22,006 bases of DNA from a virus. The notes beneath the pieces were generated by a model. The model ran no database searches, was not told where the DNA came from, and saw only the letters and a list, made by a program, of their open reading frames with translations. The position numbers and the translations under genes were made by a program. Shown one piece after another: positions 878 to 16,170 of the stretch. Numbering within the stretch: position 1 is the first letter of the stretch; each line of letters opens with the position of its first letter. Where the stretch lies: IMG/VR virus record IMGVR_UViG_3300020172_004948, positions 1 to 22,006 of that record, one strand, 5' to 3'.

Positions 878-1276
878 TTATATATTAATATCGTGTGTGT
901 TGACATAGTCTACGCTGACCTGTCCGTCGTTCATCCCTGGCTCTTTCTTTACGAATCTCCTCTGGCAATAGACAACTGTCACACTTTCTTCATTCTTTGC
1001 CTTGCTATTCTTCTTGGCGAACTCTGCAACCTTTTTAAGAGTTGTCTCGGTAGGAATAATATCTTTTGTTGCAATGATAACATGACTTCCAGGAATTCCC
1101 TTTGCATGCATCCATATATCAGAAGAATCTGCTATGTTGAACGTAAGATGGTCATTAGACTTAGCATCTCCACCGACATAAACCGTGAATCCGTCTATAT
1201 CCATTTTTTTGATATTTGGGAAGATGTTTTTCTTTCCTTCTGACAAGAATCTCTTGAAATTGTTTATATTTTTCAT
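878..1276 (-). CDS. stand-alone NFACT-R (DUF814) domain protein
   Basis: 132 residues, almost all NFACT-R domain. After a short N-terminus the protein reads GFTVYVGGDAKSNDHLTF, then DIWMHAKGIPGSHVII, a TTLKKVAEFAKKNSKAK helix, VTVVYCQRRFVKKEPGMNDG and QVSVDYV. These match the conserved NFACT-R blocks (G-x-N-D, D-W/L-W-x-H, PGSHV, AA..YS, V.Y...+.V+K..G..G.V). In RqcH/Rqc2/NEMF and Fbp this domain binds the tRNA anticodon arm and 60S/50S RNA. Here it has no NFACT-N, HhH or coiled-coil parts. The first residues, MKNINNFKRFLSE, resemble the T4 capsid-targeting signal (MKTYQEFIAE) and end in an LxE site of the type T4 gp21 cuts. A late element sits 4 bases before the ATG. Family call is strong; role is unknown. 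Confidence 0.82.
   Translation of the reverse strand: MKNINNFKRFLSEGKKNIFPNIKKMDIDGFTVYVGGDAKSNDHLTFNIADSSDIWMHAKGIPGSHVIIATKDIIPTETTLKKVAEFAKKNSKAKNEESVTVVYCQRRFVKKEPGMNDGQVSVDYVNTHDINI
879..888 (-). promoter_or_regulatory. late promoter element TTAATATATA
   Basis: Exact copy of the recurrent element, 16 bases before the ATG of the peptidase gene. It lies inside the end of the NFACT-R gene: the last sense codons and the TAA stop of that gene (878-880) are read through the same bases. Confidence 0.65.
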
Positions 1277-1301: not shown

Positions 1302-1331
1302 AAAAAAGCTGCTCTTTAAGAGCCGCTTTTT
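1302..1331 (-). terminator. rho-independent terminator after the endonuclease gene
   Basis: A-rich/T-rich flanks around stem AAAAGC-GCTC / GAGC-GCTTTT with one mismatch and a short loop. It overlaps the stop codon (1316-1318) of the minus-strand gene and precedes the late element at 1281. Confidence 0.6.
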
Positions 1332-3253
1332 AAAATCATTTTTTCGAATTTTATCTTTCCACAATCATATATTTTCAGTATATTATTTTCTAAGGCATAT
1401 TTAGATTCGGTCAATATCGTTTTTGTTTTTGATTTCTTGTACCTGGATTTGTGTACTCTTTGTCCATCTACTAGATATTTATAATCAGGTTGGCTTTCTC
1501 CTATTTTTTTAAAACCAAGCTTGTAGTATAGATTTCCTATTGACCAATCTCTATCGGCATAACTTATTACACGACTCGGATTATATGTTTTTACAAAATA
1601 TTCAAATAGTTTTGATGCACCACCAACCACATTTGTGTTTCTACTACTACAAAATCTATTTAGATTCCATCCATTATCTGACATCAAATTTCTACCCTCA
1701 AAGTGATCAAAAGTCATTATACTAACTAATATTTCATTGTGAAATAATCCTAGCTTAAGACTGCTGTTTACTTTGCCTTGTATATGGTTTTCCTCTAAAA
1801 AAGAAGAAGATTCTTTGGTGTCTACCTCGGCTATATTGCATTTTCTTGCAAAAATTTTGATATTTGTGTTGCTGACTAGATTTGATATTTGAGATTCGAC
1901 TACTTCTCTTCTAAATATCCAATCGTCTTCCCATATATGTACGATTCTAATTTCTTTGTCAAGAAAGTGTTTTGTTTTGTCGATGTGATAGTTTTTTTCC
2001 TTGTACTTGTTCGAGTGCCAATATAATCCATTGAATTCGAATCCTAATTTTAGTTCTGGCAAATAGATATCGATTTCTAGCCCGTCTCTATATCCTGGTA
2101 TTATCTCGCCACTATATACGCTTTCTATAAATTCATATAAAACTTTCTCTTTGATTGAAGATTTTGCTGATATAGGATGGCATATAGTGCATAGTGGATT
2201 GTTTTCTTTATTTCTTTTTATATAATTGTCGACATATATTTCAAACGTGTGTTCATTTCCACAGTCACAATTGAACAAGCTCAATGATGAATCGATATAT
2301 TTTATATAAAATGGATTCTTTGCGATATCATATGTCTTTTTTCTATAAATTTCGGATTTTTGTATGTTGTCAACGCCGTGCTTCTCTATGCTCATCAGTT
2401 TAATCTTTTCGTTGTAATCTGATGATTTTGTATGGTGGTCGACTCCATACCTTTCTATATTTGTTTCTTTTTTCTTTTCTTTGAAATCAGAGCTTTGGCA
2501 ATACCACTCAGCGCCATATCTGTCGAGATTTGTCTTCTTGACAATATCTTTGTATTCATTCGTTTTTGAGTAATGTGTTACACCATGCTTCTCTAAGTTT
2601 GTAATCAAAGTCTTTTCTTTATAATCGTCGGTTTGCGTATACCAGTCGACACCATATTTTAAATTATTAGTCTCTACACACATATTCTTATATTCTTCTG
2701 TTTGTGAGAAATGTTCTTTTCCGTATTTTTCTAAAATGGACTCTCTACGCTTTTCTTTAAAAATTTCTAGTTGTGATATATGGTCGACACCATACTTTTC
2801 TTTGATATTTTTTTTCCATTTTTCCTTAACATCTTCGTTTTGGAATGACGACTTTGTACCATATCTTTCCAAATTGGTTTCTTCTGCCTTCTTTTTGATA
2901 TTCGAATTCTTTGCGACATTGGTAACTCCATACTTTTCTAAGGTAGTCTTTTGTCTTTTGTCTTTTGTTGCCTTATCAGATTGTGCACATTTTGCAGAGC
3001 AATATTGCCTATATCCGTCTAACCAATTCTTGTTAAATGTCGTGCCTTTGCCACATTTGCAAGTAAATGGTACGTCTATATCATTTGTCCAATGCCACAT
3101 CTTTTCTTTAAATGATATATTATCGATATTTATACAAAAATCGTCTATTGACTTTTTTAAATCAGTATAATTCTTGTCAAAGAATGATTCTCGCAATCTA
3201 GACGACGAGCCATCCAGTATTTCTAATATAGTTTTTTTTCTATCTTCTCTCAT
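1316..3253 (-). CDS. VSR-like putative homing endonuclease with 23-residue YGV repeats
   Basis: 645 residues. The N-terminus has a zinc-ribbon-like CKCGKG...CSAKCAQ (about 65-90). Next come nine tandem 23-residue units built on TNLEKYGVxxxxQ (about 103-309), then a second CDCG...CTIC pair (about 329-358). Around 365-450 is a VSR/EDxHD-type nuclease: LEIDIYLPELKLGFEFNG, YWHS, a HIDKT segment and HIWEDDW. The C-terminal part (about 465-615, with NHIQGK, GGASKLFEYF, ISYADRDWSIGN and YYKLGFKK) resembles a GNAT-like domain often fused to such phage nucleases. Proteins of this architecture are usually free-standing homing endonucleases, and the repeats probably bind DNA. It lies between the capsid terminator and the NFACT-R gene and has its own late element 4 bases before the ATG. 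A non-homing role is possible. Confidence 0.72.
   Translation of the reverse strand: MREDRKKTILEILDGSSSRLRESFFDKNYTDLKKSIDDFCINIDNISFKEKMWHWTNDIDVPFTCKCGKGTTFNKNWLDGYRQYCSAKCAQSDKATKDKRQKTTLEKYGVTNVAKNSNIKKKAEETNLERYGTKSSFQNEDVKEKWKKNIKEKYGVDHISQLEIFKEKRRESILEKYGKEHFSQTEEYKNMCVETNNLKYGVDWYTQTDDYKEKTLITNLEKHGVTHYSKTNEYKDIVKKTNLDRYGAEWYCQSSDFKEKKKETNIERYGVDHHTKSSDYNEKIKLMSIEKHGVDNIQKSEIYRKKTYDIAKNPFYIKYIDSSLSLFNCDCGNEHTFEIYVDNYIKRNKENNPLCTICHPISAKSSIKEKVLYEFIESVYSGEIIPGYRDGLEIDIYLPELKLGFEFNGLYWHSNKYKEKNYHIDKTKHFLDKEIRIVHIWEDDWIFRREVVESQISNLVSNTNIKIFARKCNIAEVDTKESSSFLEENHIQGKVNSSLKLGLFHNEILVSIMTFDHFEGRNLMSDNGWNLNRFCSSRNTNVVGGASKLFEYFVKTYNPSRVISYADRDWSIGNLYYKLGFKKIGESQPDYKYLVDGQRVHKSRYKKSKTKTILTESKYALENNILKIYDCGKIKFEKMILKSGS
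2327..2947 (-). repeat. nine tandem 69-base units coding 23-residue YGV repeats
   Basis: The translated units align without gaps on a core of aromatic-Gly-(Val) preceded by TNLE(K/R) and followed about ten residues later by Tyr/Phe-Lys-Glu-Lys. DNA identity between units is modest, so this is an old protein repeat and not a recent duplication. Two further units of the same type occur in the protein at 8459-8851. Confidence 0.75.
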
Positions 3254-3257
3254 ATGG

Positions 3258-3267
3258 TATATATTAA
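3258..3267 (-). promoter_or_regulatory. late promoter element TTAATATATA, 4-base spacing
   Basis: Exact copy separated from the endonuclease ATG (3253) by CCAT. Confidence 0.62.
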
Positions 3268-3320
3268 AAGAAACATTTGCCCCTTTGTATTTCTATATAA
3301 AACAGAAAAATAAGTTTAAT

Positions 3321-3350
3321 AAAAAAGCCCCTCGATAAGAGGGGCTTTTT
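3321..3350 (-). terminator. strong terminator after the major capsid gene
   Basis: Perfect GC-rich stem AAGCCCCTC/GAGGGGCTT with a 4-5 base loop, A-run on one side and T-run on the other, so it could work in both directions. It begins 18 bases past the capsid stop codon and isolates this highly expressed gene from the endonuclease gene. Confidence 0.88.
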
Positions 3351-3367
3351 CAATGCATTTATTAAGA

Positions 3368-5113
3368 TTAGTTTAAATACTGAGCGTTGTCAGTTACAAC
3401 TAAAGTCATAAACTGTTTTTGTGGAAACCATCCCACTTCGGCAACTGCGTATCTAGATCTTAGTAACATTCTTGGAGCAAAAGTAGCTTCAGAAATAACT
3501 GAGATAGATTGTGCCATCAAGTAAGGTACGAAGATGATACCTGGTTGGTCTGGGTTGTTTTTTCTACCCAAAACGATTCTGTTGTCGTTGTATTTCATGT
3601 ATGGATCAACATAGATAGCGATATCTCCGATTGAACCTACTGGATATAACTGACCTTGACCGTTTAATTTAGATTTAACTGGGTTGATAGTGTAACCAGC
3701 GATATCTTGTAAAGCAGCAGCTAAACCTCCGTTTGTTACAAGGTATTGAGCAGGTCCTACTCTTCCTTCTGTAGCGATGAAGTTAGAAGCGTGAGCGATT
3801 TTAGTGATCAATTTTCTTTGAACAGCGTGAGTAGTCTCTCCACCAGCCATAGCGTTAACATAAGATGTATCTAAATCGAAGATTGTAGATGCAGTAGCAG
3901 AAACTGAAGTTTTACCAGTAGCTAAAGGCGCAGAAGTTCTGTTTAATGAACCCATTTCGAAGATTTTCGCAACGATTTGTTTAGAGATTGTTTGAGACAA
4001 TTCGTTAACAAGGATAGATTCCATTTTTTGAACGATATCCATACCAGTGTTAGCTTTGATGTCTTCGATCTCAGTTCTTCTTAAAGCTGAAGATACTTCG
4101 ATAGTACCAACTGCAACTGTTTTAGAAGAGATTTTTGGTCCGATAACTCCTGCGTAAGAATCATCGTCTTCTGATCTTGACATTGGGTAAGCACCTTGTG
4201 CAGCAGTAGGAGGAACAGCTCCGAAGTTTGTTGAGAAACCTGGGATATGGTCTTCTAATGCAGATACTAGCTCAACAGTTCCTGTTGCAGCAACGTTACC
4301 TACAAGGACGATTTGTGCAGTCATTGCGGCAGTAGAGTTGAAAGTGTTTCTTGTTGCGTCGAAATCCCATAATGTAGTAGCACTTGCAACAGCAGTGTGT
4401 GCAGTGTTAGCTTGTCTGAATGCTCTGAAGATTGGGAAACCATCGATTCTTGAGAATCCTAAGAACTCAACAACACCTGCTCTAGAACCACCGTTGATAT
4501 CGTCTAATCTAGAGAAAGTTCCTGCAGTAGGAGCTCCAGAAATAGTAGAAGCAGTTGCGATAGTCGCGAACAATCTACCACCGTTCAATCCACCAGTTAC
4601 TTCGCTAACAGCGTTGTATGTTGCAGCAGTTTTTGCAAGCTCAACTCTGATCGCAGCAGAAACTGTAGTCAAAGTAGCAGATGCTAAGTTTAATTTGAAA
4701 ACTTGTGGTCTTTCTGATTGATCACCTAATCTAGTGTCATCGTATTGGAAATCGATGTAAAGTAAGTCGATTTTCGGACCTGGAGTTGGCTTAACAGCAA
4801 CTAAGTCTAAACCGATTGTTTGAGCAGCGATTTTCATAGCTACTGGCAATAAGTTTTGTCCTACGTCTCCTGATCCAGTTACTGCACCAGCAGCTAAACC
4901 GTTAGTTTGTCCTGAATAATATCCAGGTTGTGCAGCCAATACACCACCCATACCAGCAACGTTAGATGCGTTTACGTATGCATTTTCGTTGATTGAGTGA
5001 AATTCAGCGTATTCAGCCATCCATTCAACTCTATCACCTGTAACTCCCATGTTCTCTAAAACCGGAGCCCATTTCTTTGTAGCTTTCGCTTTGTCTATTC
5101 TAATGTGTGACAT
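3368..5113 (-). CDS. major capsid protein, T4 gp23-like
   Basis: 581 residues from the preferred start. The N-terminus (MSHIRIDKAKATKKWAPVLE) and the region NLLPVAMKIAAQTIGLDLVA followed by VKPTPGPKIDLLYIDF match the gp23 family, where LLP, D-(I/L)-V-x-V-x-P and TGP are conserved. The C-terminal stretch with RYAVAEVGWFPQKQF is also typical. It forms the hexamers of the prolate or isometric head. T4 gp23 loses its N-terminus to gp21 at an IxE or LxE site, and SINE near residue 44 is a candidate cut here. An in-frame extension to 5194 exists, but it would translate the A-rich leader and the promoter-like element. The protease-scaffold gene lies directly upstream and a strong terminator directly downstream, as expected for the head module. 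Confidence 0.93.
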   Translation of the reverse strand: MSHIRIDKAKATKKWAPVLENMGVTGDRVEWMAEYAEFHSINENAYVNASNVAGMGGVLAAQPGYYSGQTNGLAAGAVTGSGDVGQNLLPVAMKIAAQTIGLDLVAVKPTPGPKIDLLYIDFQYDDTRLGDQSERPQVFKLNLASATLTTVSAAIRVELAKTAATYNAVSEVTGGLNGGRLFATIATASTISGAPTAGTFSRLDDINGGSRAGVVEFLGFSRIDGFPIFRAFRQANTAHTAVASATTLWDFDATRNTFNSTAAMTAQIVLVGNVAATGTVELVSALEDHIPGFSTNFGAVPPTAAQGAYPMSRSEDDDSYAGVIGPKISSKTVAVGTIEVSSALRRTEIEDIKANTGMDIVQKMESILVNELSQTISKQIVAKIFEMGSLNRTSAPLATGKTSVSATASTIFDLDTSYVNAMAGGETTHAVQRKLITKIAHASNFIATEGRVGPAQYLVTNGGLAAALQDIAGYTINPVKSKLNGQGQLYPVGSIGDIAIYVDPYMKYNDNRIVLGRKNNPDQPGIIFVPYLMAQSISVISEATFAPRMLLRSRYAVAEVGWFPQKQFMTLVVTDNAQYLN

Positions 5114-5208: not shown

Positions 5209-7374
5209 TTATACGTTTTTGAATCTTTCCATAATAGCAGTAACGTCATTGTCAGACAGCTTATCTTCTTGGATAAGAGCTTCGTGAGAAACTAGTTTTT
5301 TAGATACTGATTCGTTTTTTTTGAGGTTTCTAGTCGCCCAGAAATGCTCAACTTGACCTTCGGTCGTTAGAACTTCTGCAGGATATAATCTAGCTTGTGA
5401 AATGATAGATTTTTTCGCTGATTCGTTCATTTGTTCCCAGATAGCCTTTGTGTTCTCAGGCATCATTCTGATTACTCTTTCTTCAAGAGATTCGTTTTTA
5501 GCAGATAGCGCTTCAGAGATCAATGACAATACTTCTTTTTGTGTGAAGTAGCTGCTTTCGTTTATGTGCAACTTTACTGTATCTTGTTCTTCGTTAGTCA
5601 AAGCATAGTAGCTATCAACTTGTGATTTAGACATGAACTTCAAGAAATTCAAATCTGATGTCTCAGAAACTTTACGTTTTTTAGCTTCTTCGATTAATTT
5701 ATCAATAGATTCTGACAATTCTGAATCAGAACTACCGTTTACCTCATATTCGTTTGGTCCACAGTCTTCATCTTCTTCTACTTCTTCGTTTTCTTCGTGT
5801 GCGTGAACATGCTCCGGTGCAATTTCTGCGATTCCGTTTTCTTCTTCGTTTTCTTCCTCAGAAGCATAAGCATTTTCTTCTACTTTTTCTTCTTCGCTTT
5901 CTTCCTCAGAAGCATAAGCATTTTCTTCTGCATTTTCTTCTTCTTTCTCTTCTTCAAGATCTTCGAATCCAGCTGCATTCAATGATGGGAAAGCTCCTTC
6001 TGATTCGTTCAATTTTCCACCGTTTAATTTCTCAACGATCAATCCTTGGTAAGAGATAGATTTGTCTAAGTTCTCAGCGATATATTCAGAGTAAGCGATG
6101 TTGTCATCTAAGTGTTCAGCGATGTATTCAGAGTAAGCGATGTTACCTTCAACGTGCTCAGCCAAGTATTCAGAGTAAGCGATAGAGTTATCAACGTGCT
6201 CAGCGATATACTCGCCATAAGAGATAGATTTGTCTAAGTTCTCAGCGATATATTCAGAGTAAGCGATGTTCTTGTCTAAGTTTTCTGCCAAGTATTCAGA
6301 ATACGCGATGTTCTTTTCTAAGTTCTCAGCAACATATTCTGTGTAAGAAATGTTTTTGTCTAAGTTCTCAGCAACGTACTCAGAGTAAGCGATGTTTTTG
6401 TCTAAGTTTTCAGCAACATATTCTCCGTAAGCGATAGACTTGTCTAAGTTTTCAGCTAGATATTCAGAATAGTTTACTGCCTTTTCAAGATTCTCAGCTA
6501 AATAATCGTTGTGTTTGATCAATTTGTCTGTAGTTTCTTTTAAAGATTTGTTTTCGTTTACCATGATTTGAACTTTCTCTGCCAAATAGTCTAAATATTT
6601 AACTACTTGTGAGTTAGTGCTGTTCAATTCATCATAATACTCAAGCAATTGCTCAAGTTTTTTAGGGTTCATATTCCCTTTAGTAATGGCGGTCTTAACT
6701 TCTTTTTTAGTTGACGCCAACTCTTTAACCAAATACTGAGAGTAATCGGTCAGTTGTTGTTTAGTAACAAATTCGTTGTTGTTCATATTAAATAACTCTT
6801 CCGTTTTTGACTCATTGGATAAATCGTATATCCTAAAGTTAGATTGTGGGTCTTTGTAACCTAGCGACTCATTAAGAATCTTTACGCTCATCTTCGCCGA
6901 TGCGAAACCTGGGTCCGCAACGATGTCATAAGTGAATAGCTTCTTCAATGATACGGTTCCGTCAGATTCGGTAATACCGGCGGCTCTTGATGAAACGAAA
7001 ATAGGACAACCATCGTCAACCAACGATTTTGCCTCTTTTCCCCAATAAGTGCTCAATAATCTGATTTCACCTTCAACCAAGTTTGATTCTTTTACGTAAT
7101 TAGCTTTCGTTATTACGTGAGAAGCTCTTGAAAGCGAAGTATCGAAAACATCCGGGTGATCGAATTCACCGTAGACAATTCCAAGATTGTTCATTCTTTC
7201 GTTCATCTCCTCTAAAGCAGGAAGGAATTTTGCAGCAGTATATATTCTTTCGTTTCGGTTTTTGACTCCGAACTCAGTAAACGTACCACCTAAAATATAG
7301 TCCTTCTTACCAGTGCTTGAACTTTCTCTTACAAGAGAGTTCGTTGAATTTTCTACAATTAGAACTGGTTTCAT
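5209..7374 (-). CDS. prohead protease fused to a repeat-rich scaffold (gp21/gp22-like)
   Basis: 721 residues. Residues 1-170 are an S80-type prohead protease: VYGEFDHPDV (H73), SRASHVI, CPIFVSSRAAG (S128/S129) and VADPGF, in the order seen in T4 gp21 (about 210 residues). The remaining 550 residues replace a separate core protein: a lysine-rich helical region (200-285), eleven 14-residue units of the type YVAENLDKNIAYSE (about 289-443), a strongly acidic Glu-rich block (about 470-545) and a helical C-terminus (about 560-721). Fourteen residues equal two heptads, consistent with a coiled-coil rod. The likely role is an assembly core with a built-in protease that digests itself and cleaves the capsid protein. 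The gene lies directly upstream of the capsid gene. The start is supported by the late element 34 bases upstream. Confidence 0.87.
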   Translation of the reverse strand: MKPVLIVENSTNSLVRESSSTGKKDYILGGTFTEFGVKNRNERIYTAAKFLPALEEMNERMNNLGIVYGEFDHPDVFDTSLSRASHVITKANYVKESNLVEGEIRLLSTYWGKEAKSLVDDGCPIFVSSRAAGITESDGTVSLKKLFTYDIVADPGFASAKMSVKILNESLGYKDPQSNFRIYDLSNESKTEELFNMNNNEFVTKQQLTDYSQYLVKELASTKKEVKTAITKGNMNPKKLEQLLEYYDELNSTNSQVVKYLDYLAEKVQIMVNENKSLKETTDKLIKHNDYLAENLEKAVNYSEYLAENLDKSIAYGEYVAENLDKNIAYSEYVAENLDKNISYTEYVAENLEKNIAYSEYLAENLDKNIAYSEYIAENLDKSISYGEYIAEHVDNSIAYSEYLAEHVEGNIAYSEYIAEHLDDNIAYSEYIAENLDKSISYQGLIVEKLNGGKLNESEGAFPSLNAAGFEDLEEEKEEENAEENAYASEEESEEEKVEENAYASEEENEEENGIAEIAPEHVHAHEENEEVEEDEDCGPNEYEVNGSSDSELSESIDKLIEEAKKRKVSETSDLNFLKFMSKSQVDSYYALTNEEQDTVKLHINESSYFTQKEVLSLISEALSAKNESLEERVIRMMPENTKAIWEQMNESAKKSIISQARLYPAEVLTTEGQVEHFWATRNLKKNESVSKKLVSHEALIQEDKLSDNDVTAIMERFKNV
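5840..5940 (-). repeat. 51-base duplicated segment in the acidic block of the scaffold
   Basis: A 26-base identical core (5856-5881 and 5907-5932) recurs at a 51-base interval, coding EENAYASEEE twice. It is an in-frame internal duplication inside Glu-rich sequence. Confidence 0.7.
6045..6512 (-). repeat. eleven tandem 42-base units in the scaffold gene
   Basis: Period 42 bases, coding 14-residue units with core Y(L/V/I)AE(N/H)(L/V)(D/E)xx(I/V)xY. Several neighbouring units are nearly identical at DNA level, so copy number may vary by slippage or recombination. The frame is kept throughout. Confidence 0.85.
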
Positions 7375-8458: not shown

Positions 8459-8851
8459 ATGATACTTACAAGAGAAATTGAAATAAAAATAAACGAGTCT
8501 AACTATCAGTACTACGAAGAATTGGGATATGACATCTCGATTGGCGAGACCATAACCATACCGGTAGAGTTGCTGCCGAACGGATCGCATTATAAAGTAA
8601 AGTGCAAATGCGACGGCTGTGGAATAGAGAAAGAAGTCATATACAAAAACTACCTAAAATACGACAACGAAAAGTGGGGAGACTATTCCTGTAGAAAATG
8701 CTCGGAGACCAAGCGAAAGGAAACGCTGAGAAAGAACTTCGGAGTAGACTACCCCATACAGAACAAAAAAGTATTGTCGAAGATGAAAAACACCCTTATA
8801 AAGAAATACGGGGTCGACAATATCTCAAAAAAGAACAAAAAAGATGAATAA
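8459..8851 (+). CDS. zinc-finger protein with two YGV repeats, no nuclease domain
   Basis: 130 residues. A four-cysteine zinc finger (CKCDGCG about 50-56, CRKC about 79-82) is followed by two 23-residue units (ETLRKNFGVDYPIQ and NTLIKKYGVDNIS). Both elements match the N-terminal, presumably DNA-binding, part of the endonuclease at 1316-3253. It may be a remnant of a homing endonuclease or a small DNA-binding protein derived from one. The reading frame is intact and the gene overlaps the RNase R start by 8 bases, so the two are probably translationally coupled. No Shine-Dalgarno sequence precedes the ATG. The domain call is moderate; the function is unknown. Confidence 0.6.
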   Translation: MILTREIEIKINESNYQYYEELGYDISIGETITIPVELLPNGSHYKVKCKCDGCGIEKEVIYKNYLKYDNEKWGDYSCRKCSETKRKETLRKNFGVDYPIQNKKVLSKMKNTLIKKYGVDNISKKNKKDE

Positions 8852-10727
8852 AATCAAAGAAGGCGACATATTCGAGTCGCAATTGGAATTCTCCATGTCG
8901 GGAAACGCCACCATAAAGATAGACGGCAGGGAAATCTTCATACACAAGAAGAAGACCGCCAACGCGCTTCACCTGGACACGGCAAGAGTCGAGATATTCC
9001 AAGGACAGAAAAAGCTTGAGGGAAAAGTGATTGAAACGATATCCAGATACAAGACGGAATTCGCCGGAACAGCACAGGTAAACGGCGAGACCGTATTCGT
9101 TGTACCAGACAGCAACAGGATGATAGTAGACTTCTATATAAAAGGAAGCGAGAATATAGAAAACGGACAAAAAGTCCTTGTAGAGTTTCTAGACTGGGAT
9201 CTCGGAAAGAAGTCACCAAGAGGAAAGATCAAGAAAATTCTTGGGCGTTCAGGAGAAAACAACGCAGAGATGAACGCGATAATGTACGAATACGGCCTAC
9301 CAGTCGAATTTCCACAAGAAGTCATAGACGAATCAGAGCTCGTTCCCGAAGAGATTAGCGAGGACGAGATAAAGTCGAGAAGAGACATGCGATCCACCGT
9401 CACTATAACGATAGACCCGGTAGATGCCAAGGATTTCGACGACGCCATATCTATCGACATGAGAGATCTAAACAACATAGAAGTCGGTATTCACATAGCA
9501 GACGTCTCGCACTACGTAAAGTCAGGGACAGAGCTGGACAAAGAAGCGTTCAAGAGAGCCACTTCGGTATATCTAGTAGATAGATGCGTGCCTATGCTCC
9601 CAGAGAGGCTCTCAAACGGGATATGCTCTTTGAAGCCAAACGTGGACAGGCTTGCGTTCTCGGTAGTTCTAACTCTAGACAAAGACGGAAACATAAAAGA
9701 CACTTGGCAGGGAAAGACCGTCATACACTCTGATAGAAGGTTCGCATATGAAGAGGCACAAGATATAATCGAAGGGTTGGATGGAGACTATTTCAGAGAA
9801 ATCAGGCAGCTAGACTCTATGGCGAGAAAAATAAGAAAGTCCAGGATAAAAGAAGGATCTATCGAGATGGGTGGATTGGAAGTGAAGTTCGTTCTGGCAG
9901 AAGACAACAAAAAGCCGATAGGAGTCTACTTCAAAGAGCAGAAAGAAGCGAACAAGCTTATCGAAGAATACATGCTTCTGGCGAACAAGTCTGTCGCCAA
10001 GCGGCTTGCCACAGACCAATGGCACAACGTATACAGAGTTCACGACCGACCGAACGGAGAAAAGCTGGCAGCACTTCAGAGCATATGTACCAACTTTGGA
10101 TACACGCTAGAGCTAGACGATGAAGGAGACTCGCTGAAGAAGAACCTAAACCAGCTTCTAAAGGAAATCAAAGGAAAGCCAGAAGAAAACATGATCGAGA
10201 CGCTGGTTACTAGATCGATGTCAAAAGCGGTATATACCATAAAGAACATAGGACACTATGGATTGGGTTTCACTCACTATTCGCACTTCACATCGCCGAT
10301 AAGGAGATATCCCGACCTCATAACTCACAGGATACTATTCGATAGACTGACCACCAACAAGCAGGGAAATCCTACGGTCATAGAAGATCAGGCAAAATGG
10401 TGCTCTAGCAGAGAGCTGATAGCATCCAAGGCGCAGCGAGAATCTATAAAGTACAAGCAGATTGAATATCTGCAAGACAAAGTCGGGCAAGTATTCGACG
10501 GAATCGTAACCGGAGTGATGGAGAGAGGAATCTATGCGGAAATAGAGGAAAACAAATGCGAGGGCATGATAAGGCTAGAGACGTTGAACGGAAAATGGAC
10601 GGCGAACGTAGACAAATACTTCGCGAGCAACGAGCTTGGAGACCAGATCAGGCTTGGGGATCCTATTAAAGTGGTGGTGGCATCGGTCGACCTAGAAAAA
10701 AGGCAGATAAATTTCACAAGATTCTAA
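8844..10727 (+). CDS. rnr: RNase R/RNase II family 3'-5' exoribonuclease
   Basis: 627 residues. N-terminal OB (cold-shock-like) domains occupy about 1-150. The RNB catalytic domain begins near 175 with TITIDPVDAKDFDDAISI, whose D191, D197, D199 and D200 correspond to the four metal-binding aspartates of RNase II. HIADVSHYV, PMLPERLSNGICSLKP and GLGFTHYSHFTSPIRRYPDL complete the signature; the last is the RNR form. A C-terminal S1 domain (about 535-627) ends the protein. Compared with E. coli RNase R it lacks the N-terminal helix-turn-helix and the Lys-rich tail. It degrades RNA processively from the 3' end, including structured RNA. The gene is second in a plus-strand island without a late promoter element, so early or middle expression is likely. 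All catalytic residues are present. Confidence 0.93.
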   Translation: MNKIKEGDIFESQLEFSMSGNATIKIDGREIFIHKKKTANALHLDTARVEIFQGQKKLEGKVIETISRYKTEFAGTAQVNGETVFVVPDSNRMIVDFYIKGSENIENGQKVLVEFLDWDLGKKSPRGKIKKILGRSGENNAEMNAIMYEYGLPVEFPQEVIDESELVPEEISEDEIKSRRDMRSTVTITIDPVDAKDFDDAISIDMRDLNNIEVGIHIADVSHYVKSGTELDKEAFKRATSVYLVDRCVPMLPERLSNGICSLKPNVDRLAFSVVLTLDKDGNIKDTWQGKTVIHSDRRFAYEEAQDIIEGLDGDYFREIRQLDSMARKIRKSRIKEGSIEMGGLEVKFVLAEDNKKPIGVYFKEQKEANKLIEEYMLLANKSVAKRLATDQWHNVYRVHDRPNGEKLAALQSICTNFGYTLELDDEGDSLKKNLNQLLKEIKGKPEENMIETLVTRSMSKAVYTIKNIGHYGLGFTHYSHFTSPIRRYPDLITHRILFDRLTTNKQGNPTVIEDQAKWCSSRELIASKAQRESIKYKQIEYLQDKVGQVFDGIVTGVMERGIYAEIEENKCEGMIRLETLNGKWTANVDKYFASNELGDQIRLGDPIKVVVASVDLEKRQINFTRF

Positions 10728-14790: not shown

Positions 14791-15133
14791 TAGATATTAT
14801 CTTATAGGCTAATATAGCTATATAGATAGCGATGTTTATCCAAGGCAGGCACATGATATAAGCCTTATAGATTACTCCGCTGATATGGTATAACGCGAAT
14901 TTGGCGAGGTTTACGACTATGAGAAGCATAAACATATCGTCGTAGCTTGAAAACAATCCTATTATCGGCCAAAATATGGAAAGCGTCTTCGATATGTAGA
15001 AGACGACATCTATCTTTTTTATAGAATTCAAAATCTTTTTCTTGAATATTAAGTCTAGCCTCTTCCTGTTCATGAAGTGGTATATTTCCGCGAATATAAA
15101 GGCCGCGAGCATAGAATAGAATATCTCGATCAT
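14780..15133 (-). CDS. small membrane protein, unknown
   Basis: 117 residues with three or four hydrophobic segments: about 1-20 (FYSMLAAFIFAEIYHF), 45-62, 66-85 (MFMLLIVVNLAKFALYHI) and 92-115 (WINIAIYIAILAYKIISII), with a basic cytoplasmic stretch at 22-40. It overlaps the 15130 gene by 4 bases (ATGA), indicating translational coupling. Holin, superinfection-exclusion or another envelope role cannot be told apart from sequence. Confidence 0.65.
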   Translation of the reverse strand: MIEIFYSMLAAFIFAEIYHFMNRKRLDLIFKKKILNSIKKIDVVFYISKTLSIFWPIIGLFSSYDDMFMLLIVVNLAKFALYHISGVIYKAYIMCLPWINIAIYIAILAYKIISIIH

Positions 15134-15432
15134 ATCTCTTTTATTGTTATTTCTTCCATTCCCATGAGATTGTTCATCTGATATTGCGTGAGCCTAACGG
15201 ACTTTTCTTTCTGAACGAGCTCGAACAGCGCGTCTTCTATGAATGCCTCTACGCCTTCTCCGACGATCCTATCATATTCATGCGGTATGGATGTGTCAGA
15301 CTTCCTACTTTCGTAGACAGCCTGTATGTAATTTTCTCTCTCTTTAGAATCCGCGTGCATAGAGCACCCGTCTGGCCGAGTTCCCCAGCCTCTTTCCGAT
15401 TCTTCCCAAATCTGTAAAATAATCTTGTTCAT
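15130..15432 (-). CDS. small conserved protein, unknown
   Basis: 100 residues from ATG 15432 (MNKIILQIWEESERGW); the in-frame extension to 15471 begins in AT-rich non-coding sequence. The block SERGWGTRPDGCSMHADSKERENYI resembles a motif in small phage and bacterial proteins of unknown role (R-P-D-G-x-S-x-H...R..Y). The C-terminus is helical. It is first in a two-gene unit with the membrane protein. There is no late element upstream; TATCTTCG near 15472 is one base from a host -7 box. Confidence 0.6.
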   Translation of the reverse strand: MNKIILQIWEESERGWGTRPDGCSMHADSKERENYIQAVYESRKSDTSIPHEYDRIVGEGVEAFIEDALFELVQKEKSVRLTQYQMNNLMGMEEITIKEI

Positions 15433-15501
15433 GATAAAAGTTGTTATAGATCTTATATGCGAAGATAGCAAAAGTTTATGAAATTTTATATTTTATTATT
15501 C

Positions 15502-15532
15502 TGTGTCGGCAAGAAAATTATATATATCTTTG
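15502..15532 (+). promoter_or_regulatory. Bacteroidota-type promoter (TGTG-N19-TATCTTTG)
   Basis: An exact TAnnTTTG box (15525-15532) with TGTG (one mismatch from TTTG) exactly 19 bases upstream, the same spacing as at 13506-13536. No gene follows on this strand before the terminator at 15704, so it would drive a non-coding transcript. Confidence 0.5.
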
Positions 15533-15536
15533 ACTT

Positions 15537-15731
15537 GCCAAAGGGTTTGCGGTTTCCCTACAAAAAATCGAGTGAAACTTATGTTTTGCGGTAGCTTAGA
15601 ATGAGGATGATGTCCGAATACGTCTTATGATGGTGGTTGCCAGCTCTCCCATATACAGCTGAATGGGCGGCTACTAACAGCCGATAAATATACGGTTAGG
15701 TAGAAAAAAAAGGAGACTTCGGTCTCCTTTT
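15537..15731 (+). ncRNA. candidate structured non-coding RNA, about 195 nt
   Basis: No usable reading frame exists here, and the block is visibly richer in G and C than the AT-rich gaps elsewhere. Pairings seen by eye: GTTTC 15552-15556 with GAAAC 15574-15578; GATGT 15609-15613 with ACGTC 15620-15624; CAGCT 15641-15645 with AGCTG 15657-15661; CCCAT 15648-15652 with ATGGG 15663-15667 (crossing the previous stem, so a pseudoknot or a switch); CGGCT 15668-15672 with AGCCG 15679-15683; and CTACTAAC 15671-15678 with GTTA-G-GTAG 15695-15703 (exclusive with the previous). TTTGCGGT occurs twice (15546, 15585). A promoter precedes it and a UUCG terminator ends it. The family was not recognised. The strand is inferred from the promoter; a long leader of the 15432 gene on the minus strand is the alternative. 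Confidence 0.42.
15704..15731. terminator. UUCG-loop terminator, both directions
   Basis: Stem GGAGAC/GTCTCC closed by TTCG, with eight A before and four T after. The long T-run on the minus strand makes it the terminator of the sigma gene (stop 15736-15738). On the plus strand it could end the candidate ncRNA. Confidence 0.88.
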
Positions 15732-15735
15732 CTAG

Positions 15736-16170
15736 TTATAAAGAATGTAGCCCCATTCCGTCATTTGAACCTTCTATAGAGATAAGTCTTATCTGATGCT
15801 CGTTGTCACCTTTCTTTTTATAGAGATCGTTATATCCCTTCGCAATACCTCTCTTGAATATTTCGGTGAAATAAGCAAACGCGTTTACCGACTTTTCTTC
15901 GTTGAAATTGTACCAGTTCTGGAAAACATAAAGTAGTCCGCTTTGGTAGCAGTCCATCTTATCGTCGTTTGACCAGTATCTCATCTTTTTTATTGTTTTC
16001 TTCGCCAGAAGCTCCAGCATTTGCTGAGCGGGCCTTGTAAGTCTTCCCTGTGCCTTGCTGACTACCAGTTCTATGTAAAGTTCTCTATTGTTTAAGTACA
16101 TTAATAAGCATTTTATTTTTTTGAATCCATAAGGATTTTTAGATGCTTTCATGTTATAGAGATTTATCAT
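15736..16170 (-). CDS. late-transcription sigma factor, T4 gp55-like
   Basis: 144 residues. Region-2-like helices are visible: LTRPAQQMLELLAKKTI, then DKMDCYQSGLLYVFQNWYNF, and NAFAYFTEIFKRGIAKGYND. This matches gp55, where a ..D..Q.G....NF...K...NAFAYF/ITQI..R............K pattern binds core polymerase and melts the late promoter. Like T4 gp55 it is far shorter than sigma-70 and lacks region 4. The start could instead be the inner ATG at 16152 (MKASKNPYG). No late element precedes it, fitting early or middle expression. It is the likely reader of the TTAATATATA elements in this window. Downstream is the UUCG terminator and upstream the terminator of the 16236 gene. Confidence 0.78.
   Translation of the reverse strand: MINLYNMKASKNPYGFKKIKCLLMYLNNRELYIELVVSKAQGRLTRPAQQMLELLAKKTIKKMRYWSNDDKMDCYQSGLLYVFQNWYNFNEEKSVNAFAYFTEIFKRGIAKGYNDLYKKKGDNEHQIRLISIEGSNDGMGLHSL

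Follow-up and report, generated by a model that had tools for sequence, protein, structure and literature searches.

A gap of 303 bases that is poor in reading frames (15433-15735; a check of open reading frames found no long one) separates two minus-strand genes of a viral DNA fragment of 22,006 nucleotides, the whole stretch analysed and hereafter called the window, and raises the question of what is encoded there. The gap almost certainly holds the gene for a predicted RNA, with the following elements and borders:

15130-15432, minus strand: gene of 100 amino acids whose start side forms the left border of the gap; its ATG is kept in the homologous contig L086.
15502-15532, plus strand: sigma-ABfr-type promoter, with a -33 element TGTG (15502-15505), a 19-nt spacer and the -7 element TATCTTTG (15525-15532).
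15536-15731, plus strand: predicted non-coding RNA of about 195 nt, its start placed from the -7 element (±3 nt) and supported by homologues.
15708-15731, plus strand: intrinsic terminator AAAAGGAGAC-UUCG-GUCUCCUUUU, the stem of which covaries in other copies (GGAGAC/GUCUCC to AGAGAC/GUCUCU).
15736-16170, minus strand: late-sigma gene whose stop side forms the right border of the gap.

The preliminary description of this DNA had proposed a gene for a structured RNA, equipped with a host-type promoter of its own and a UUCG terminator, and this was borne out; both elements are kept in other copies of the RNA. The sigma-ABfr consensus consists of TTTG near -33 and TAnnTTTG at -7 (PMC7366714), and the pattern T[TG]TG-N19-TATCTTTG was observed once on the two strands of the window, against 0.01 occurrences expected in first-order Markov sequence. 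The GC content of the RNA body is 0.44, versus 0.22 just upstream and 0.38 for the whole window. A simple terminator scan missed the hairpin at 15708-15731 because its T run is short; read on the minus strand, the same hairpin could also end the convergent sigma gene. The window RNA scores 192.7 bits with covariance model R1, a model that has the window itself among its building sequences. The folding energy of this RNA taken alone does not stand out (z = -1.45, with 15 of 200 shuffles folding at least as well), and the case therefore rests on comparison and not on energy.

The fragment carries T4-type head genes (portal, major head protein and maturation protease) as well as the late-sigma relative, and its portal shares 83% identity with the portal of LR745206.1, an uncultured phage of 634,780 bases. 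This record and LR756502 were handled as megaphages (PMC9723777), and Bacteroidetes hosts were predicted for phages above 634 kb (PMC7162821). The window resembles these megaphages of more than 630 kb; given the megaphage-like portal and the predicted hosts, a Bacteroidota promoter is of the host type to be expected. The huge phages that carry the RNA probably infect Bacteroidota bacteria. Among the other genes of the window are an RNase R/II-type exoribonuclease with RNB, cold-shock and S1 domains (8844-10727, plus strand; Pfam E 1e-107), a stand-alone NFACT-R RNA-binding domain such as occurs in ribosome quality control proteins (878-1276, minus strand; Pfam E 5e-15) and a head maturation protease fused to a long EYLAENLDK-type repeat region (5209-7374, minus strand), perhaps a protease-scaffold fusion. 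A DUF7487 gene lies at different sites in two close phages, at 1316-3253 (minus strand) in the window and at 2741-4216 (plus strand) in L086, where it directly adjoins the sigma gene; it looks mobile and is perhaps a homing element.

Homologues were recovered by several searches, giving, with the window counted in, 17 copies on 12 contigs (the window's own copy and 16 more on 11 other viral contigs), although some of these contigs may belong to one phage, and L082 and L185 come from one metagenome. The copies fall into four types, A to D, and the carriers are mostly huge phages of 272-296 kb. A search for relatives of the sigma gene led to a single contig (L001/L086), which shares the synteny of the window and is 76% identical to its DNA across the gap, and an exact conserved block led to L082, L083, L084 and L085, the last a 282-kb contig; in L082, L084 and L085 a second copy with a terminator of its own follows in tandem, 198 nt further downstream. 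Covariance model R1 retrieved a diverged copy (E 3e-5) in a tRNA cluster of the same 282-kb phage, and a pattern search with the shared core retrieved L185, L174, L184 and L192. Type B thus comprises L165/L209 (the 282-kb phage), L185 (an 80-kb contig), L174 (a 296-kb phage), L184 and L192. Models R2 and R3 then gave type C (L333, from the same 296-kb phage as L174) and type D in two further phages (L325/L369 and L377); the E-values at first detection of type D were modest (0.0015 and 0.003), with promoter, terminator and fold adding support. Up to three copies, tandem or paralogous, occur in one phage. Most low-scoring covariance matches (L161, L326-L330, L334, L378-L381) were judged to be chance by their score and poor core, the pattern GGATGATGTCCNAATAC gave 53 false matches that are apparently coding, and gapped patterns run against GTDB genomes and IMG/VR yielded no new true copies.

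In the predicted fold a three-way junction (P3/P3a/P4) is followed by an H-type pseudoknot, PK1, and then by a less certain one, PK2. The helices in the window are:

15542-15559, plus strand: P1 hairpin AGGG/CCCU, in type A only; AGGG/CCUU in the L082b type.
15572-15589, plus strand: P2 hairpin GUGAAAC/GUUUUGC, type A, with two-sided changes at two pairs.
15590-15641, plus strand: P3, closing helix of the three-way junction (15590-15595 with 15636-15641).
15605-15615, plus strand: P3a hairpin GGA/UCC (15605-15607 with 15613-15615), followed by conserved RAAUAC.
15621-15632, plus strand: P4 hairpin CGUC/GAUG (15621-15624 with 15629-15632), followed by conserved GGUG.
15642-15667, plus strand: PK1, H-type pseudoknot (15642-15645 with 15657-15660; 15648-15652 with 15663-15667).
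15668-15699, plus strand: PK2, second H-type pseudoknot (15668-15672 with 15679-15683; 15674-15678 with 15695-15699).

The family is defined by the P3/P3a/P4 junction with RAAUAC and GGUG and by PK1 after it, an arrangement found across the compared copies; folding L325 by itself produces this three-way junction as well. P3 changes its letters from type to type (GGYARC/GYURCY in A, CUUARC/GYUAAG in B, GGUGAUU/AAUUACC in C, UGUC/GACA in D), and P4 appears as CGUC/GAUG, CAUC/GAUG, CGUC/GACG or CACA/CGUG. P3a is GGA/UCC or GGG/CCC in types A, C and D, and type B has a longer hairpin instead. An alternative P4 (GAUGU/ACGUC, 15609-15624) was abandoned, since in type B that strand takes part in other pairing; the CRUC/GAUG-like pairing is kept in all types.

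An H-type pseudoknot at about 15641-15667 had already been suspected from the letters of the window, and with covariation in both of its helices PK1 is, on comparative grounds, certain. Across types A, B and C all 72 PK1 cells are paired and seven of the nine pairs show two-sided changes. These changes amount to 16 cells, a count matched by none of 500 shuffles; in the core shared by types A and B, 99.2% of cells are paired with 20 two-sided cells, which again none of 500 shuffles reached, and since the shuffles keep the relatedness among the sequences, both counts are to be read as support and not as probabilities. Within type A, 98.6% of cells are paired, seven pairs have two-sided changes and all helices are kept. 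When the partners were slid by one to three columns, pairing fell to at most 50% (at most 46% for the A and B core). In a hand table of nine copies, with P3 between types and every type D pair positioned manually, 258 of 261 pairs are standard. The test of conservation and covariation in related phages, put forward beforehand as able to refute this RNA, was thus run and passed, homologues with compensatory changes having been found: the predicted fold is kept by compensatory mutations across several huge phages.

PK2 is a probable H-type pseudoknot. Its first helix, present in types A, B and D, covaries (CGGCU/AGCCG to CGUUU/AAACG); the second was identified in types A and B only, is mostly invariant in A and has its order swapped in B (GUUAG/CUAAC), with weak covariation and one mismatch in L174. 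The near-invariance of this helix in type A and the L174 mismatch make PK2 probable rather than proven. The same region had been read as two mutually exclusive stems. That reading is partly wrong: the helices 15668-15672/15679-15683 and 15674-15678/15695-15699 can form together and are better read as PK2, and a switch is not supported; the outer part of the longer stem as then drawn, to 15703, is not conserved.

The expression signals accompany the fold. TTTG or TGTG, a 19-nt spacer and TA[TC]CTTTG lie upstream of the RNA in L086, L082/L083, L165, L174, L325 and L377; L084 carries TACCTTTG in the promoter position, and the type C copy L333 has the -7 element only, without a clear -33. In types A, B and D the terminator hairpin closes the complete copies, and its stem covaries in type A. 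A predicted sigma-ABfr-type promoter and a terminator are retained in nearly all complete copies, the tandem second copies having no promoter of their own. In L082 the promoter region before the first copy is duplicated (5280-5415, plus strand; TTTTGATAATT...TATCTTTGACTTGTTGAAATGA twice), and a second, upstream transcript start is possible there.

The genes around the RNA are not constant. Those flanking it in L082-L085 differ from those of the window, and promoter, terminator and fold persist. When the sigma protein of the window was searched in L086, L082, L083, L084 and L085, a relative was found in L086 only. The type B copies of L165, L185 and L209 sit within a tRNA cluster; in the cluster of L165 and L209 several tRNA-like sequences end in GTTCGAATCC..., some of them missed by ARAGORN, and these may be odd or split tRNAs. 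In both L082 and L325, homologous genes (50% identity) precede the RNA and the DNA polymerase follows it; with most relatives of this polymerase the RNA is absent from that position as well as from the searched records, and under strict filters it was not found in the megaphages LR745206 and LR756502. As most related phages are without it, the RNA is accessory and not essential. A short RNA-like gene of a related phage (L351:1472-1600, plus strand), also upstream of the DNA polymerase, combines a TTTG-N19-TATCTTTG promoter with a strong terminator, and its fold z, terminator included, is -4.1; the RNA models do not match it, and it is possibly a second RNA family.

The earlier impression that no known RNA family is involved agrees with the covariance search, in which none of the 4227 families of Rfam 15 exceeded its gathering score (only tRNAs in the flanks did) and the best sub-threshold matches at a permissive E<=5 were at chance level. 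Blastn with queries of types A-D against deposited phages gave terminator-sized or chance fragments only, a plasmid search gave no match, and a literature search found nothing resembling this RNA. Judged by these comparisons, the predicted RNA is a new family or class among the autonomous structured RNAs of phages. The packaging RNA (pRNA) of phage phi29 is an RNA of about 170 nt and hence of similar size; it has a different fold and no Rfam match to the RNA described here, whose carriers have T4-type portal and capsid genes and whose bearers' relatives mostly lack it. Phage T4 makes the stable RNAs C and D, small non-tRNA RNAs encoded within its tRNA cluster; the likeness is one of description, Rfam and phage blastn giving no match. 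Several H-type pseudoknots in series, and the position of type B copies among tRNAs, recall tmRNA, but the RNA has neither a tRNA-Ala-like domain nor a tag reading frame, and it is not called by ARAGORN. GOLLD and ROOL RNAs are about 600-800 nt long. These ornate large RNAs are likewise stand-alone structured RNAs that occur in phages too (PMC12286853), but they are far larger and multimeric, and their Rfam models do not match.

Going by its anatomy, the RNA is probably an early-transcribed, trans-acting, protein-binding RNA, which may be used in host takeover or counter-defence. Its gene would be an autonomous one of the phage, read by the host RNA polymerase as soon as infection begins, and the product a compact non-coding RNA with pseudoknots that works in trans. 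Its compensated helices would serve as a scaffold presenting invariant unpaired segments (RAAUAC, GGUG and the PK1 linkers) to a protein or ribonucleoprotein of the host or the phage. Promoter, covarying scaffold, invariant unpaired segments, independence of neighbours, patchiness and duplication are together best fitted by such a trans-acting RNA. The idea that the RNA occupies a machine or defence factor of the host, as a decoy or in an antitoxin-like manner, is a guess, for which the pseudo-ToxI RNA of phage PhiTE is a helpful precedent (PMC3475682); a role of this kind fits the patchy presence and the tandem or paralogous copies.

An unlikely alternative, the best placed of several, is a translation- or ribosome-linked RNA that aids phage protein synthesis and is kept with tRNAs and translation genes. 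The type B copies in the tRNA cluster, the NFACT-R protein and RNase R-like enzyme of the window and the many translation genes of huge phages (PMC7162821) agree with it; against it, the other copies are not near tRNAs, no tRNA or tmRNA was called by ARAGORN or Rfam, no cloverleaf with an anticodon was seen and no tag peptide is conserved.

Slightly less likely still is mimicry of the antitoxin RNA of a type III toxin-antitoxin system, in which the pseudoknots would bind a host endoribonuclease toxin and thereby neutralise it. The precedent is phage PhiTE, whose pseudo-ToxI pseudoknot repeats suppress ToxN (PMC3475682) and which shares with the present case a non-coding phage RNA built on an H-type pseudoknot, accessory and in tandem units, as in L082, L084 and L085. 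The ToxI unit, however, measures 36 nt and has no junction or individual terminator, whereas the unit here measures 198 nt, with a three-way junction and its own terminator; tandem units occur in some copies only, the window has a single one, and no antitoxin RNA of Rfam matches.

A base-pairing regulatory small RNA, including one that would read through into the convergent sigma gene and act as antisense to its 3' end, as suggested in the preliminary description, is improbable. The RNA does converge with the sigma gene, possibly across a bidirectional terminator, in the window and in L086, but among the flanks read these two alone adjoin that gene, so antisense action is not supported as the conserved role; neighbours in the other phages are unrelated, the terminator is conserved, and the RNA is compact and extensively paired, with structure conserved rather than a seed. 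Guide RNAs of RNA-guided nucleases contain pseudoknots and may lie away from the nuclease gene. A guide or scaffold RNA for a TnpB/IscB/Cas12-like nuclease, which these general features would allow, is nevertheless very improbable here: the TnpB/Cas12f-type C-terminal domain (PF07282) is absent from the ten RNA-carrying records searched, which may be fragments, the terminator hairpin, and not a guide, forms the 3' end of complete type A, B and D copies, and no RAGATH-type Rfam family matches. A short coding gene or DNA-level element is scarcely credible. Some copies do contain short ATG frames of 18-28 codons, but the longest frame shared by some type A copies ends after nine codons in the window, the ends differ among copies, types B to D share no frame, and changes compensate across helices.

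The trans-acting, protein-binding reading can be taken further, tentatively, to a pseudoknotted RNA class that duplicates among the largest known Bacteroidota phages and may disable a conserved host machine or defence protein, as an RNA counterpart of the protein inhibitors of phages. Surveys of huge phages centre on proteins and tRNAs, and this RNA says that elaborate RNAs are used too: a structured RNA, so far known from only four divergent types, survives across differing neighbourhoods with its own predicted promoter and paralogues. Its covariance model makes the family searchable and its promoter makes expression testable; if the RNA binds a host protein, it would reveal a vulnerable host factor or defence system.
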